DNA of 26,223 nt, taken from IMG/VR virus record IMGVR_UViG_3300035669_000006, positions 1 to 26,223 of that record. One strand, 5' to 3'. The notes under the pieces were generated by a model. The model had not been told where the DNA came from and did no database searches. It saw only the letters and a list, made by a program, of their open reading frames with translations. Shown one piece after another: positions 1 to 5,869 of this stretch. The stretch comes from a virus. The number at the start of each line of letters is the position of its first letter. Positions within the stretch are counted from its first letter, which is position 1. The position numbers and the translations under genes were made by a program.

Positions 1-702
1 GTTCTGTTTCTTTTTGGGTTTGCCGGGTGCCGCGTCGGCTTCGGGCTCAGAGCCTTCCGCCGCTGCGATCCGATCCCAGTAGGCGGTCTGTTCTTCGTCG
101 GCTTTGCGCTGGGTGGCTTCGGTCCGACCGGTGCTGATCTCGCCCAGGGCATCTCGGTAAGCGCTCGCCAGCTCATCGCGATTGGTCCCGTAGGTGGCGC
201 GGTTAGAGCCGAGGCGGTTGGAGGTCGAGCCGGAGTAAAGCTGTAACCCGGCCGAGTTCATCGTCCCCCGGTTGGCCTGCTGGAAGCTCTGCTCTAGAAG
301 GGCCGCCCGGGAGTTCGGATTCGATTTGTAGTCGTTGAATCCGGCGTCGAGGCCGAAGTCCTGTTTGGCGGCCTGTTCTGAGAGATCGAAGTTGGCTCCC
401 GCGTCGAGGTAGCTTTTCCGAGCGCCGCTGACGGTCTGCTCGTAGCGAGAGTCCCAGGGGGTCGGAGTACGGACCGCTGGGGCGGCCGTGGCCCCCGGAG
501 CGGCAGGAGAGGAAGGCTTTGGCATCGTGGCCGGGCGTGATTGACCAAGGCCCATCCGATCAGCAGGGCGCGCGCGGTTCAGGCCGGTGGTGTTTCCGCC
601 CAACGCCGAGGAAGGGGCAGAGGTCCCGCCCGTCGCAGGAGGACGGCGGGCCTGGATGGCGTTAGAGATGATCTGGCGACGCGGACTGTTTTCTCGTGCC
701 AC
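1..702 (-). CDS. Putative phage virion protein, C-terminus beyond window
   Basis: An open frame begins at a GTG (702-700) and runs for 234 codons off the left edge without a stop. A GAGAGG motif lies about 10 bases upstream of the GTG, which supports this start. The N-terminal third is rich in Pro, Ala, Ser and Arg and looks disordered. The middle contains Ser/Asn/Tyr-rich sequence such as QQANRGTMNSAGLQLYSG, and the visible end is charged with many Lys. No enzyme motif is seen. The gene follows the tail fibre in the same direction, 74 bases downstream of it, so a structural or internal virion role is likely. Glycine- and asparagine-rich proteins that end tail modules are common in phages, but I do not recognise the family. 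The function is inferred from position only. Confidence 0.7.
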   Translation of the reverse strand, partial: MARENSPRRQIISNAIQARRPPATGGTSAPSSALGGNTTGLNRARPADRMGLGQSRPATMPKPSSPAAPGATAAPAVRTPTPWDSRYEQTVSGARKSYLDAGANFDLSEQAAKQDFGLDAGFNDYKSNPNSRAALLEQSFQQANRGTMNSAGLQLYSGSTSNRLGSNRATYGTNRDELASAYRDALGEISTGRTEATQRKADEEQTAYWDRIAAAEGSEPEADAAPGKPKKKQN

Positions 703-776
703 TAGAAGATCCTCTCTTTGGGGTTCGGATTGACGTTGTCGAAGCTGGGTGCGCTGCGTGGCTTGGAGGGCAGGGC

Positions 777-2645
777 TCAGTCGGGGTAGAAGGAGATGCC
801 GTCGAGCGACAAATATTCGATGTTGTATTTGGCGATGTTCGGGACGAACGTGACTGCTCCGGCCGGCGTGATATCGACTCGGAGAGGGTGGACCGTGCTG
901 TCGTTGCCTTGACCCGCAAAGATCACGCGTTCGGACGGCCTGAAGCCTGGGGGAAGTTCAAAGATCACGCTTTCCCCAGAGCCTTCCGCGATCGGTCGTT
1001 TCGCAGTGCCGCGAAGATGCACTTTCCCGTCCCTGGCCTTGCGATAGGCGACGTTCATGAACGTGCTGCCCAGGTTCGCCCAGCTATTTTTGAACGCCGG
1101 CGCGGTCCAAGCGCCGGCATACCCGAAGGTCAGCACCGTCGTGTTGAGGGTGATCGGCGCCGCCGTGAGCAAAGCGAACTCCACGCCGCCGTTCTGCGTG
1201 CCGCTCACGATCTGAAAAGTCATGCCGGGCCGGGCTTTTTCAGACGTGTCGAACTCCGACACTCGCTCCATCCACCATTTCGATCCTGCGCTCCCAACGC
1301 TGCCGATTTTGTAGGGGCCCTGGTCGGCTCCCGCCTGGGCGTATTCGCGCATCAGGTAGTAGTCGTTCACCGCCAGGGTTACCCCGTCCTGTGCAGGGAG
1401 GGCACCGTTGGCGTTGGCTTCGATTTTGTTACCGGTGCGGGTATAGGCGGGCAGCGCGGTGACGGTGGCGGCAGCGCAAAGGATCGAGAGTCCGCTAATC
1501 GCCCCGCTTTCGATTTGTTCCGCGCCAACCGAGTTCGGTGCGAGGGTTGGATTCGGGAAGTTCCCCGTCAGGTCCCCGCCCGCTGGGCCTACCGGGGTAG
1601 CCGTGCGCCTGACGAATTCCTGCGAGGTAGCGCCGATGACGATCGGGTTTTCGGTCTGAAGCACCCACTCGGTTGAGCCGTTGGTGGCCCCCGAGAGGAT
1701 CGAGACCGTCATGCCCTGCTTGGCCTCTTCGGTCGTGTCGGCGTCGCTCGTGCGGGTCAGGAGCCACCTCGATCCGACCCCGATTTCCCCGCCGCCGCCA
1801 ATCGTTCCTTCGCCGCCGATGGCTTCGTTTTTGGTGACTTCAAAAAGGCCGTTCTGGGCTTTGGACGCTTGGTCCTTCAGGAGAAGGCGGGTGCCAATTG
1901 GAGGACTCGATTTGCCGTCCACGACCAGCGGGCAATCGCCTTCGAGCGTTTTTTCGGCCGAGGCGGTGATCGTCAGGGCTGCGGTGGTCGCGTAGGTCGC
2001 AGGCTGCTTGATCGACAAACCTGCGGCGGCTGCTGCTGCGAGAGCACGGGCGATTTCTTCGGCTTCGAGCAAGAGCTGCGTGATCGTCTTGCCCGAGTCT
2101 TTGATCGTCTTGCCGCCCGTTCCGCTGAACAGGGCGATGTCCGATTCGGTGGAGCCGGCCGGACCTTTGACCCGTTCGTTGTCAGCGGCTTCACGTTCAG
2201 ATTTCTCGGTCGCGTCAGCCGCTTTCCGAGCGCCTTCCTCGACCCCGTCAGCAGCTTCCCTCGCCGCTTTCTCTATGGAGTCCGCAGAGGCCCGTGAGGT
2301 TGCCTCTTCTTCGTCGGCTTCTACTCGTGCAACTACCTCCGCAAGGTCCGCTGCTTCTCTTCCGGTTTTCTCTCCCGCCAGCTCAGCGTCGGTCGCTGCG
2401 GTGGCCGCGTCCTGCTTCAGCGCCAAGCCGTTGTCTAGCTCGGCCTGGGTTGCCATATCGACGGCGAATTCAGGGTTGGGGTAGGTCCCTTTGAGGACCC
2501 CTCCGGCTTTCCCTGACGGCGGGACGCCTTCGGACTCGATCTCGGTAACGCGGTTATCTAGGGCTTGACCGTCTTGGGAGAGGCCCCGGAAGTTCTGATC
2601 CGAGGCCGCGTCCCTGACGGCCCCGCCTCGAAGCTTCCAGGGCAT
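777..2645 (-). CDS. Tail fibre / receptor-binding protein
   Basis: The 622-residue protein has a tail-fibre layout. Residues about 1-70 form an N-terminal region with heptad-like DNRVTEIESEG. It is followed by an Ala/Glu-rich coiled-coil stretch (about 85-190) with repeated AAD-x-x-EK-x-x-REAAD units. A collagen-like GPAG precedes SxSDIALFSGTGGKTIKDSG, a motif frequent in phage fibres. Two similar beta modules follow (about 200-350 and 385-510), each with a D-T-x-E/S-x-A-x-x-G-M-T pattern. The C-terminal about 100 residues resemble the beta-sandwich heads of phage fibres. The ATG start has GAAAGG upstream. The protein is expected to sit at the tail tip and bind the host surface. Host specificity cannot be read from the sequence. 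Confidence 0.85.
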   Translation of the reverse strand: MPWKLRGGAVRDAASDQNFRGLSQDGQALDNRVTEIESEGVPPSGKAGGVLKGTYPNPEFAVDMATQAELDNGLALKQDAATAATDAELAGEKTGREAADLAEVVARVEADEEEATSRASADSIEKAAREAADGVEEGARKAADATEKSEREAADNERVKGPAGSTESDIALFSGTGGKTIKDSGKTITQLLLEAEEIARALAAAAAAGLSIKQPATYATTAALTITASAEKTLEGDCPLVVDGKSSPPIGTRLLLKDQASKAQNGLFEVTKNEAIGGEGTIGGGGEIGVGSRWLLTRTSDADTTEEAKQGMTVSILSGATNGSTEWVLQTENPIVIGATSQEFVRRTATPVGPAGGDLTGNFPNPTLAPNSVGAEQIESGAISGLSILCAAATVTALPAYTRTGNKIEANANGALPAQDGVTLAVNDYYLMREYAQAGADQGPYKIGSVGSAGSKWWMERVSEFDTSEKARPGMTFQIVSGTQNGGVEFALLTAAPITLNTTVLTFGYAGAWTAPAFKNSWANLGSTFMNVAYRKARDGKVHLRGTAKRPIAEGSGESVIFELPPGFRPSERVIFAGQGNDSTVHPLRVDITPAGAVTFVPNIAKYNIEYLSLDGISFYPD

Positions 2646-2719: not shown

Positions 2720-3055
2720 ATGAAGAGAGCAATCTTCTGCTGCGCCATTCTTGGCCTACTGGCCTTAAGTGGAACGGCTACCAGCGCGTATTACGTGGAA
2801 CATCCAACGATCAGGGAAGGTGAAGCGCGAGACGACGCACTAAAGATCCTGCACGGCTACCCCGGCTGGCGCTACCGTCAGGCTGGGTACGTTGACTGCC
2901 GCTTTGGGCGGCTTAATCGCTATATATGGGCCTGTCGCGTCGGCTGGATATCGGGGCGATCGAACTGCTGGCGAGGGAGATTGCGGATCGAAAATCAGTA
3001 CAAGCAGGGACCGACCATCTACTTTCGCTCGCGGTTCGTGAAGAAGCGCTGTTGA
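2720..3055 (+). CDS. Secreted Cys-rich small protein of unknown function
   Basis: This 111-residue protein lies on the opposite strand to its neighbours. It starts with a clear signal peptide: Lys-Arg, then a hydrophobic core (AIFCCAILGLLALSG) and a likely Ala-x-Ala-type cleavage near residue 23. The mature part is small, basic and aromatic. It has Cys residues spaced in VDCRFGR, WACRVGW and SNCWRGR and a Cys as its last residue, suggesting disulphides in an exported domain. The ATG has GAAGAAGG upstream. Its stop overlaps the TTG start of the metallopeptidase gene (TTGA), so the two are probably co-translated. It could be a chaperone, propeptide or partner of the peptidase, or simply a co-acquired secreted protein. 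No family was recognised with certainty. Confidence 0.7.
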   Translation: MKRAIFCCAILGLLALSGTATSAYYVEHPTIREGEARDDALKILHGYPGWRYRQAGYVDCRFGRLNRYIWACRVGWISGRSNCWRGRLRIENQYKQGPTIYFRSRFVKKRC

Positions 3056-3657
3056 AGCGGCTTCTTTTGGTCGCGGCAGCGGTGCTAGCCCTCGGGGGCT
3101 CCGAGGCCAGCGCAAGGACGACGATCCTCTGCGATCCCTGCTCCTATCCCTATCAGCGCTGGGTGGATGAAGCGAAGGTGCCGACGCCCGATGAAGTGGT
3201 CACCCTGGTTGAAGACTCAACGCCCTGTCGAGAAGGTAGCGCGTGCACTGAAGCCGGTCCTGGGGGCAATATTTTCCTAGACCCAGCCCACTTCTTTGAG
3301 GACCCGTTTTTCGTGGAAAACGCCTTGCTTCACGAGATCGGCCACCGCTTTGACTACACCTTGGCAACGGAAGAAATGAGGGCGGGGTTCATGGCAATCC
3401 TTGGGGACACGCGGGCATGGCGACAGTCGCCCAACTCGCCGCATGAGAACTTCGCAGAGGTCTACTCACTCTGTGCGGCCTACGGTTCGACGTTGCCCGA
3501 CTTCGTCTCTGTCGACTTAGTCCCGAGCGGGCGAGTTGGGCGACGGCAGTACACGCAGCTATGCGTGCTGCTTGGATCTGCGCCACCGAAGCCTATCCGC
3601 CCTTGCCGTCCCTCGGTACGAAAGGGCCTATGTGCGGCACGGCCCGCTAGGAACTAG
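3052..3657 (+). CDS. Secreted HExxH zinc metallopeptidase
   Basis: The start chosen is the TTG at 3052, overlapping the previous stop as TTGA. A signal peptide begins exactly there (KRLLLVAAAVLALGG, with ASA cleavage near residue 21), whereas upstream starts give no sensible N-terminus. The 201-residue product carries LLHEIGHRFDY, with zinc ligands His94 and His98 and catalytic Glu95. About 35 residues later comes SPHENFAEVYSLCA, where Glu132 or Glu136 could be the third ligand as in gluzincins, including the lethal-factor-like group. Eight Cys residues, among them CDPC and a Cys pair near 59-65, suggest disulphides. The product should be exported and may cut an extracellular or envelope protein. 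The substrate is unknown. The gene ends tail-to-tail with the next minus-strand gene, and the two stops share CTAG. Confidence 0.8.
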   Translation: MKRLLLVAAAVLALGGSEASARTTILCDPCSYPYQRWVDEAKVPTPDEVVTLVEDSTPCREGSACTEAGPGGNIFLDPAHFFEDPFFVENALLHEIGHRFDYTLATEEMRAGFMAILGDTRAWRQSPNSPHENFAEVYSLCAAYGSTLPDFVSVDLVPSGRVGRRQYTQLCVLLGSAPPKPIRPCRPSVRKGLCAARPARN

Positions 3658-4259
3658 GTGTGGTGGGTCTGCAACTGGATGTGGATTGCTGATTTGCTCC
3701 CGCCAGGGGTGGCTCCCGAGAGGGCAACCCCGAATACGAAGGGGCCATCACTGGGGATAGCAAAGTCTCCAGAGTTTCCTTGGGAAAGGGTATTAGCGGA
3801 CGGTGATGCAAAAGCCACGGTCGATCCAGTTACGGCCGCTCCCACGGTGTAGGTTCCCGCAGAAATACCCGTGACGGGATACATGCCTACCGTGAAGGTC
3901 CGAGACGGGGCCGTCCCGTTCGTCTCAAGCTGCACTCGCAGTCTCAGTTTTTGCGTAGCGCCCGAGACTTCATAATCGGCTTTGGCGAACTGGAAGAGAA
4001 CAACCCCACGGGTTGATTCGAGCAGCTGCATTTCCGCAGCACGGTTGAAATACAGAGTCGCCGCGGAACCTTCGTTGTAGTAGCCATCGCCCGTAGCCAG
4101 GGTCCGATATACGGATGAGCCAGGGGAAGCAAGGAAGGAATTGAGAATCTTGTTTTCCGAGTTCAGCCCGTCATTGAGGACTTTGATAGCGGCGATGTAC
4201 TTCGGGTCCCCGGTGCTGTTTTTCTCGCCCACTTCCGGGGGCGGAACGGTGCCAGTCAT
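3654..4259 (-). CDS. Putative tail-associated structural protein
   Basis: The 201-residue protein follows the nozzle gene, which it overlaps or nearly touches. Its ATG has AAAGGGAG upstream. The N-terminus contains DPKYIAAIKVLNDGLNSENKI, a helical segment of a type seen before beta-rich phage appendage domains. The rest is Ser/Thr/Gly-rich with alternating hydrophobic residues (KLRLRVQLETNG, FTVGMYPVTGISAG), consistent with a beta-sandwich. No enzyme residues are evident. Position between the tail nozzle and tail fibre suggests a tail appendage or fibre-attachment protein. The family is not recognised. Confidence 0.75.
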   Translation of the reverse strand: MTGTVPPPEVGEKNSTGDPKYIAAIKVLNDGLNSENKILNSFLASPGSSVYRTLATGDGYYNEGSAATLYFNRAAEMQLLESTRGVVLFQFAKADYEVSGATQKLRLRVQLETNGTAPSRTFTVGMYPVTGISAGTYTVGAAVTGSTVAFASPSANTLSQGNSGDFAIPSDGPFVFGVALSGATPGGSKSAIHIQLQTHHT

Positions 4260-4270
4260 CTAGCTCCCTT

Positions 4271-5869
4271 TCATGGATTGATGGTCGAGGGCTTGGAGAT
4301 CTCCCTCAGCAAGTTGTCTACGCGGTGCATGGACCAACTCTGATCGAGGGTCGAGTTGAAGAAGAACATGGAGAAGGTCGTGCCTCGTTCTGCAACGCGG
4401 CGCTGGGTTCCGATCAGTGCGTTTGCGATGTCCCCGATCAGCCCTTCGCCGCCGATGAAGCCTTCGCCGCCGATGGGCGAGCCGGTCGTGCCCGTCATGT
4501 CGAGTTCGACGGTCGAGCCAGCGTTGATGATGAAGTCTGAGTCCAGTCCCATTTCAACAACGCCCGTCCCCCAGACCTTCGATTCCCTGATCGTCTTGCG
4601 GTCCGGGTTGTCAAGGTCAAACCAGCCGGAGCGCCAACGGGAGGAGATCGCGGCCCCGTCGTCGTTGGTGTAGCTCGAGGAATGCCGGCCGACTTTGTTT
4701 GCCCCCGAGGCGTAGCCGAAGACCAACTCCTCGCGGCTGCCGACCCTGAAGCTCGTAAAGCAGGAGGCGGGAAGCGAGTAGAGCGACCACCACTCGAAGT
4801 TCGGGTCGTAGACGAGGACGCGGCTGTTTGCTTCGCTCGTAGGGAAGGCTAGGTAGATCCGGTCTTCCCAGGTGCCCATCGCGCAGTTGGCGATCGAGCC
4901 CGTAGCCAGCGTCCCTCCGGTGTAGAAGGGCGAGGCTTCGCCGGACCAGATCGGCTCGACCGCCGAGGAGATCAGTTCGGGCTCTTGGCCCGTGGTCCGG
5001 TAGACGCCATTGCGGGCCATGAAGTAGACGCCCGTGGGGTGGATGCAGAGGGCGCGCGGGGCGACGAGACCAACGCCGGCGTCGACGGGGCGGAAGAGGA
5101 ATTCAGGGCCGCCCTCGGCGTCACTGCCAACCGCGTAGAAGACGAAGAAGCTGGTTTCCTTGAAGACGAAGACGAATTCCTTCCAGGCGATGCAGGCTTG
5201 GATAGGCTCGCCGTTGCCTGGCATCAGCTGCACCTGGTTTTCTTCGGGTTCGGTCGTGTGCCAGGACTCCGGATCCCCAGGGTCTGAGAACCAGACGTGG
5301 TCCGGGGAAGAGATCGCCCCTCCCGGCCCCCCGGTAGTCGTAGAGAAGCGGGTCGCGACCAACCGATTCCCACCCGAGGGCCACACGCAGAGCGATCCGG
5401 CCTTCGGCATCGCTTTGACACCTTCGGCGTTGACGGTCGCGGTTGGAGCGGTCCATTCGGAGCCGTTCCATTTGCGCAGCGTGTCCGTCCCGTTCCCGGC
5501 GTAGGCGACCTCGGCGTTCGGTTTCCCGAAGCGGGCGAAGTCCCAGACTGCGTTCGTCAAGCCGGTCTCTGAATCAACCACCGCCCCAGCGGTACTCAGA
5601 GCCTCCAGTCGGGTGCCACAGCCCGCGAGAAGCTGTCTCGTACCCGAAGACGTATAGAAGGCCTCCAGGCTCCCTACGGGGTTCGTGAGGGGCTGGGGAG
5701 AGGTGAGCTGCGCGTAGCCCGGCCGTTGCTGGATGGCTCCACGGTCTGAGAAGAGGACATCGAGGGCGTCGATGCAGGAAGCAGGGTCGACGTTGTCCGG
5801 CTTGGAAAGAAGATCCAAGCCTCTGCCGAAGCCCTGCTGTGGGTAGCCCGTCAGGCCGCGGACAGACAT
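4271..5869 (-). CDS. Tail nozzle / tail tube protein B-like (P22 gp10 or T7 gp12 type)
   Basis: The 532-residue protein has the hallmarks of the beta-propeller nozzle or packaged-DNA stabilisation proteins of short-tailed phages. An N-terminal RGAIQQRPGY segment (about 43-52) is followed by repeating beta blades and the family-typical HVWFSDPGDPESW (191-203). Further on are FVFKETSFFVFY and YFMARNGVYRTTGQ. In P22 and T7 such proteins close the portal channel and form the tail tube end. The ATG overlaps the upstream adaptor stop by one base (TGATG), implying coupled translation. An odd low-complexity GGEG-x-IG repeat lies near residue 470. Confidence 0.8.
   Translation of the reverse strand: MSVRGLTGYPQQGFGRGLDLLSKPDNVDPASCIDALDVLFSDRGAIQQRPGYAQLTSPQPLTNPVGSLEAFYTSSGTRQLLAGCGTRLEALSTAGAVVDSETGLTNAVWDFARFGKPNAEVAYAGNGTDTLRKWNGSEWTAPTATVNAEGVKAMPKAGSLCVWPSGGNRLVATRFSTTTGGPGGAISSPDHVWFSDPGDPESWHTTEPEENQVQLMPGNGEPIQACIAWKEFVFVFKETSFFVFYAVGSDAEGGPEFLFRPVDAGVGLVAPRALCIHPTGVYFMARNGVYRTTGQEPELISSAVEPIWSGEASPFYTGGTLATGSIANCAMGTWEDRIYLAFPTSEANSRVLVYDPNFEWWSLYSLPASCFTSFRVGSREELVFGYASGANKVGRHSSSYTNDDGAAISSRWRSGWFDLDNPDRKTIRESKVWGTGVVEMGLDSDFIINAGSTVELDMTGTTGSPIGGEGFIGGEGLIGDIANALIGTQRRVAERGTTFSMFFFNSTLDQSWSMHRVDNLLREISKPSTINP

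Follow-up and report, generated by a model that had tools for sequence, protein, structure and literature searches.

A Predicted Exported Gluzincin-Type Peptidase in an Opposite-Strand Slot of the Tail Operon in Podovirus-like Phages

The Two-Gene Cassette and Its Phage

Two genes, designated ORF1 (2720..3055) and ORF2 (3052..3657), lie on the plus strand in the window, which is the whole 26,223-nucleotide stretch of the IMG/VR virus record that was analyzed. The cassette fills a gap of 1 kb separating minus-strand genes at 777-2645 and 3654-4259. ORF1, the first cargo gene, encodes a small exported-looking, cysteine-containing protein of 111 amino acids. ORF2, the second, extends from a TTG codon at 3052 to a TAG codon ending at 3657 and encodes a predicted exported zinc peptidase of 201 amino acids, with a mature form of about 180 residues. 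An RBS-like sequence, AAGAAGGG, is present at 2707-2714, 5 nt ahead of the ORF1 start, and a second, GAAGAAG, is found at 3040-3046, 5 nt ahead of the TTG of ORF2. The TTG start of ORF2 (3052-3054) overlaps the TGA stop of ORF1 (3053-3055). At the other end, the convergent stops of ORF2 and the neighboring structural gene overlap in the tetranucleotide CTAG (3654..3657), and the same 4-nt overlap also occurs in loci L005, L006, L007, and L010. No promoter-like site was found ahead of the cassette using the sigma-70 consensus only.

The N-termini of both proteins resemble Sec signal peptides (residues 1-21 of ORF2 and about 1-22 of ORF1) as judged by our own heuristic rather than SignalP. The predicted signal peptide of ORF2, (M)KRLLLVAAAVLALGGSEASA (3052..3114, plus strand), is much like those of the L029 peptidase and the unrelated L049 hydrolase described below. 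The preliminary description of this DNA had proposed a pair of signal-peptide genes on the plus strand of a minus-strand tail module, linked by a TTGA start/stop overlap. The ORF coordinates, the flanking gene strands, and the heuristic agree with it on each of these points.

The 26 kb record represents a podovirus-like phage with a P22/SU10-type portal, an SU10-like adaptor, and a terminase. All other called genes of the window except one are located on the minus strand. The gene at 777..2645 (minus strand) matches PHROG tail families and is annotated as a tail-fibre or minor tail gene. The gene at 3654..4259 (minus strand) encodes a short, adhesin-like, mosaic structural protein, whose homologues with exchangeable C-termini are found at the same place in relatives. 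Homologues of the fibre gene likewise border this site. The virion structural or tail adaptor gene at 4271..5869 (minus strand; phrog_3287) follows. Distant relatives of the terminase and capsid proteins are found in phages of Arthrobacter, Microbacterium, and Cellulosimicrobium, and the host of the window phage is therefore likely to be an uncultured actinobacterium. The record of the window and those of its nearest relatives, all of which are possibly partial, revealed no integrase.

The ORF2 Family and Its Predicted Fold

Thirteen further members of the ORF2 family were identified, all on phage or phage-like contigs. Twelve were obtained from scans of viral contigs and reside on contigs of 26 to 135 kb; the 13th came from a scan of genome contigs, and the phage-like contig that bears it had been assigned to a Betaproteobacteria MAG from groundwater. 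Locus L033 (JACQGO010000112.1) is a podovirus-like contig in a Betaproteobacteria MAG; it carries, at the matching position in the gene order, a peptidase that has diverged, and its placement reflects either mis-binning or a proteobacterial host. Identity between family members falls to about 21-25%. Judged from the 13 further proteins that keep the frame, the reading frame and motifs of ORF2 exceed chance.

The window protein was aligned with the 12 viral members; residue numbers refer to the full-length protein, which equal the mature numbers plus 21. Pro46, His94, Glu95, Gly97, His98, Arg110, Glu132, Phe134, Ala135, and Cys141 are invariant in all 13 sequences, and Trp37, Cys65, Asp101, Phe113, Trp123, Tyr138, and Cys171 are nearly so. 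A PYQRWVDEA-like segment shortly past the signal peptide is typical of the family. The predicted zinc-binding and catalytic motif, HEIGH, is formed by residues 94-98 (3331..3345, plus strand) and is followed by Asp101, which is conserved in 12 of the 13 proteins. The probable third zinc ligand is Glu132 (3445..3447, plus strand) of the E-x-F-A-[ED] motif. A downstream glutamate within HENFAE (residues 131-136) had been anticipated together with the HExxH motif, and this part of the assignment stands. The invariant candidate is the first glutamate of that segment; Glu136 is replaced by Asp, Ser, or Asn in some relatives.

Neither ORF1 nor ORF2 matches a family in Pfam, NCBIfam, or PHROGs. Searches of cultured-phage records with tblastn returned weak, unrelated matches to ORF2, none of them convincing, and plasmids returned no match. 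Two scans were made of cellular genomes, one per species for 85,000 species: the first detected no relative of ORF2, and the second detected one, on a phage-like contig. Within 274 genomes from the class of that Betaproteobacteria MAG, the same contig and one marginal short match were recovered and nothing else. Phages had been expected to carry exported metallopeptidases only rarely. This agrees with the cultured-phage records, but members of the family turn up repeatedly in tailed phages of metagenomes, podovirus-like and myovirus-like ones among them. No prior description was found in the literature searched, the coverage of which was partial.

A compact AlphaFold2 model of ORF2 was obtained on the family alignment with a pLDDT of 87.2 and a pTM of 0.81. 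The HExxH motif is borne by helix 64-82, and Glu132 (mature residue 111) sits on helix 109-123, both in mature numbering. A Foldseek search using this model gave a best E of 4e-3, which is not decisive alone. When the model was compared using VIA-align, the catalytic domain of lethal factor was aligned over 133 residues with a Z of 8.0 and an rmsd of 3.6, and the PPEPs were among the best neighbors with Z values of 6.3-6.9. A second model, made with L005 as the query, repeated this result, with a Z of 8.9 for the lethal-factor domain and 7.0-7.9 for the PPEPs. A Z of 8-9 barely exceeds the scores reached by models without a clear match. The best structural neighbors are gluzincins that share the layout of an HExxH helix plus a Glu helix. 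We take ORF2 as having a gluzincin-type zincin fold (MEROPS clan MA(E)-like) on the strength of these models. The exported HExxH peptidase of the gluzincin type that had been proposed from the motifs is thus supported by family conservation, a confident AlphaFold2 model, and gluzincin neighbors in two fold comparisons, and structure prediction places the two helices of a zinc-peptidase fold around residues 94-136.

Assignment to family M34 was considered but not adopted. The ATLF profile matches the ORF2 family with E values of 0.12-0.33, under the cut-off and not significant, and a profile search of the PDB gave an E of about 0.1; the lethal-factor sequence matches have overall E values of 0.1-1 and are likewise not significant. 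With respect to the overall catalytic-domain fold, M34, the PPEPs, and lethal factor are the best neighbors, with a Z of only 7-9. In PPEP-3, Tyr190 is located seven residues before the Glu ligand, Glu197 (PMC12828418). A Tyr at this position is absent in all 13 aligned ORF2 proteins. Because the sequence matches are not significant and this Tyr is missing, ORF2 was not filed in M34. From its sequence and model, ORF2 is best described as a member of an unnamed, new family of compact gluzincins.

Since the oxyanion Tyr of the PPEPs is missing, the activity of ORF2 could differ or be lost, although no metal ligand varies. A zincin fold that is catalytically inert and acts as a decoy for binding only would account for the absence of this Tyr in every aligned member. 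The HExGH motif and the third-ligand Glu are nevertheless invariant at identities of about 21-25%, which is unusual for a dead fold, and an inert protein is considered very improbable.

The Insertion Slot and the Distribution of Its Cargo

Related phages were gathered using the adaptor gene as the query (37 loci), and the junction of the short structural gene with the fibre gene was read in each. The junction is empty in six relatives (L052, L057, L060, L061, L063, and L066). In L052 both flanking genes are homologous to those of the window and lie 3 nt apart, which constitutes a clean empty junction. In three phages (the window, L004, and L029), a peptidase gene occupies the junction and is encoded on the strand opposite to its neighbors. 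In L047, whose adaptor is 79% identical to that of the window, the slot gene (L047:8334-8885, minus strand) encodes an exported-looking, metzincin-like protease with a HEYGHMLGLGHD motif and a match to Pfam M10 (E 1.3e-4) just under the curated cut-off. In L049, with an adaptor 70% identical, the slot gene (L049:8306-9022, minus strand) encodes an exported-looking, alpha/beta-hydrolase-like (esterase-like) protein with weak Pfam matches (E 0.009). Small exported-looking Cys proteins stand alone in the slot in L048 (L048:3042-3401) and L067 (L067:8232-8600), both on the minus strand; these two are clearly alike and have no family match. The slot gene of L055 also encodes a small exported-looking Cys protein.

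When the same heuristic was applied, 12 of 15 slot genes had a signal-peptide-like N-terminus at the listed start; the figures for sense late genes and antisense ORFs were 1 of 242 and 17 of 192, respectively. On this sequence evidence, the junction is an insertion slot, within the tail operon, for predicted exported proteins encoded on the opposite strand. An insertion where relatives have adjacent genes, as expected for a moron, is seen with the clean junction of L052 and the five other empty junctions. In L050, L056, L058, and L059 another opposite-strand gene adjoins the adaptor. Its coiled-coil product has the conserved segment CFGE.P..RYG and an N-terminus that is hydrophobic in several of these loci and exported-looking, by the heuristic, in L058 and L059.

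The signal peptide of the L049 hydrolase, MKRSLLLAAVLLALAASEARA, closely resembles the segment MKRGLLLAAVVLALGASEASA that serves as signal peptide in the L029 peptidase, and the corresponding DNA segments are 71% identical (47/66). The coding sequences of the window and L049 behind the signal were aligned at 47% (131/280). Because signal peptides are biased in composition, these values suggest, rather than establish, a common descent for the signal segments of L049 and L029, with possible reuse in cargo swapping.

Identity of the window with L029 is 62-90% for the core genes, 46% for the fibre gene, 35% for the short structural gene, and 48% for the peptidase, and is undetectable for ORF1. The genes bordering the slot are probably host-contact genes, and the slot diverges with them. 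The shared divergence fits selection imposed by the host surface as well as frequent exchange, and the tree does not discriminate between the two. Horizontal exchange of the peptidase between phage types is suggested by the pairwise identities of the window protein (43% to L002 and 40% to L029) but is not claimed, as the tree lacks resolution and no alternative was rejected by AU tests.

The distribution of ORF1 bears on the proposal that the small protein is an inhibitor or partner of the peptidase. In such a two-gene module, ORF1 would inhibit, chaperone, or target the peptidase and be co-translated with it via the TTGA overlap. A positional counterpart is encoded in L029 (5531-5935) by a gene for a small exported-looking Cys protein directly upstream of the peptidase, with an ATGA overlap, and in L005 (L005:5653-6462) the peptidase follows a signal peptide and a small Cys-containing domain within a single fused reading frame; the fold of that domain was predicted with low confidence. 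Each arrangement occurs in 1 of 13 other carriers. No relative of ORF1 was detected in the collections searched or in the records of ORF2 carriers, homology of ORF1 with the L029 protein is not detectable, and the small exported-looking proteins encoded by the window, L029, and L055 could not be shown to be homologous. A check for the same pair elsewhere therefore returned no conserved homologous partner. Since the partner is missing in most carriers and small proteins occupy the site without a peptidase (L048, L055, and L067), an inhibitor or obligate partner is unsupported, and a partner role for ORF1 is judged unlikely. The sequences argue, with reasonable likelihood, for ORF1 as an independent exported cargo of the slot. 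A weak match to ORF1 with two stops was observed at 573-767 (plus strand), in a gap separating minus-strand genes. Its score of 69, against a maximum of 67 in 400 shuffles, may be due to chance, there is no DNA similarity, and a decayed copy is not claimed.

Outside this clade, the peptidase is encoded on the opposite strand beside a structural gene in L005, L006, L007, L009, L010, L018, and L033, and the convergent stops overlap in several of these loci. The structural neighbors in these carriers belong to a mosaic family with exchanged C-termini. Genes for an endolysin, a holin, or another cell-wall hydrolase are located within about 3 kb of the peptidase in L005, L006, L007, L012, and L023, and in L023 the peptidase is on the same strand as an amidase and downstream of it. 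These neighbors are consistent with an accessory role in lysis, in which the peptidase would digest an envelope protein layer and aid lysis or release. The cassette is, however, opposite to the late-gene strand in the window and its relatives, the lysin-like gene of the window is >10 kb away, and the slot is empty in many relatives, so that an aid to lysis or dispersal ranks third among the benefits considered and is improbable. In L006, a glycosyl hydrolase family 26-like gene (L006:3274-4290, minus strand) adjoins an endolysin-like gene.

An integrase or a resolvase-type recombinase is encoded in at least four carriers (L002, L005, L012, and L018). Together with the moron-like placement, the empty sites, and the other exported-looking enzymes of the same slot, these genes are compatible with lysogenic conversion, in which the peptidase would serve the lysogen (nutrition, competition, or surface remodeling) and not the phage directly. 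The records of the window, L004, and L029, which are possibly partial, contain no detectable integrase, and the scans of 85,000 species provided a single relative, on a phage-like contig. A contribution to lysogen fitness is ranked second and is rather doubtful.

Proposed Function and Comparison with Known Systems

ORF2 is probably an exported zinc-dependent endopeptidase that is carried with ORF1 as moron cargo and acts at or beyond the host surface. We infer zinc binding, activity, export, and separate transcription from the features described above. The cassette would be carried in the opposite-strand slot, where the tail operon has its 3' end, and transcribed apart from the late genes. The ORF2 product would exit the infected or lysogenised cell through Sec, be stabilized by disulfides, and cleave a protein on the surface of the host cell or beyond it. 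The most likely benefit, itself put forward tentatively, is the shaving or alteration of a protein on the host surface, which would prevent the adsorption of superinfecting or progeny phage. This proposal derives from the slot location and the shared divergence only.

For the lineage as a whole, the convergent end of the tail operon may be kept as a dedicated secretion slot that accepts, in exchange for one another, small secreted proteins and unrelated exported enzymes (gluzincin, metzincin, and alpha/beta-hydrolase), some of them behind a signal segment that is reused. Such a swappable module of exported effectors could diversify with the adhesins to remodel host surfaces. The slot contents suggest phages that remodel the world outside the host cell. 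The analysis adds an unnamed family of predicted exported viral zinc peptidases. Of greater importance, a single slot in related phages holds different exported-looking proteins, including two unrelated metalloproteases. The slot offers a direct and testable approach to the ways in which phages that infect little-known bacteria change the host exterior, and it marks a genomic location at which to seek further effectors of this kind.

Phage morons, or lysogenic-conversion genes, include lom and bor of lambda. The slot genes resemble morons as extra genes in separate orientation among late genes that are adjacent in relatives, with exported products. What differs is that one slot here holds several kinds of predicted exported enzyme, among them a hydrolase and two zinc peptidases that are unrelated to each other. 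The metzincin-like protease of L047 shares its HEYGHMLGLGHD motif with the matrixins (Peptidase_M10); it belongs to a different zincin subclan from ORF2, is unrelated to it, and was found in one sister phage only.

PPEP-1, PPEP-2, and PPEP-3 are secreted zincins, and PPEP-1 cleaves adhesion proteins. Like ORF2, for which export is predicted, they are small zinc peptidases with an HExxH helix and a third Glu ligand, and most of the domain can be aligned. They differ from the ORF2 family by identities of only 11-17% and by the Tyr at Glu-7; unlike the PPEPs, the ORF2 proteins are phage-borne, have about 130-180 residues in the mature form, and contain conserved Cys residues. The catalytic domain of lethal factor (MEROPS M34, Pfam ATLF) is the best neighbor over 131-133 residues and has the HExGHxxD and E-x-F-A-[ED] patterns in common with ORF2. 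Compared with lethal factor, ORF2 is a single small domain, so that the translocation domains are missing; the Tyr before the Glu is also absent, and there is no sign of action on animals.
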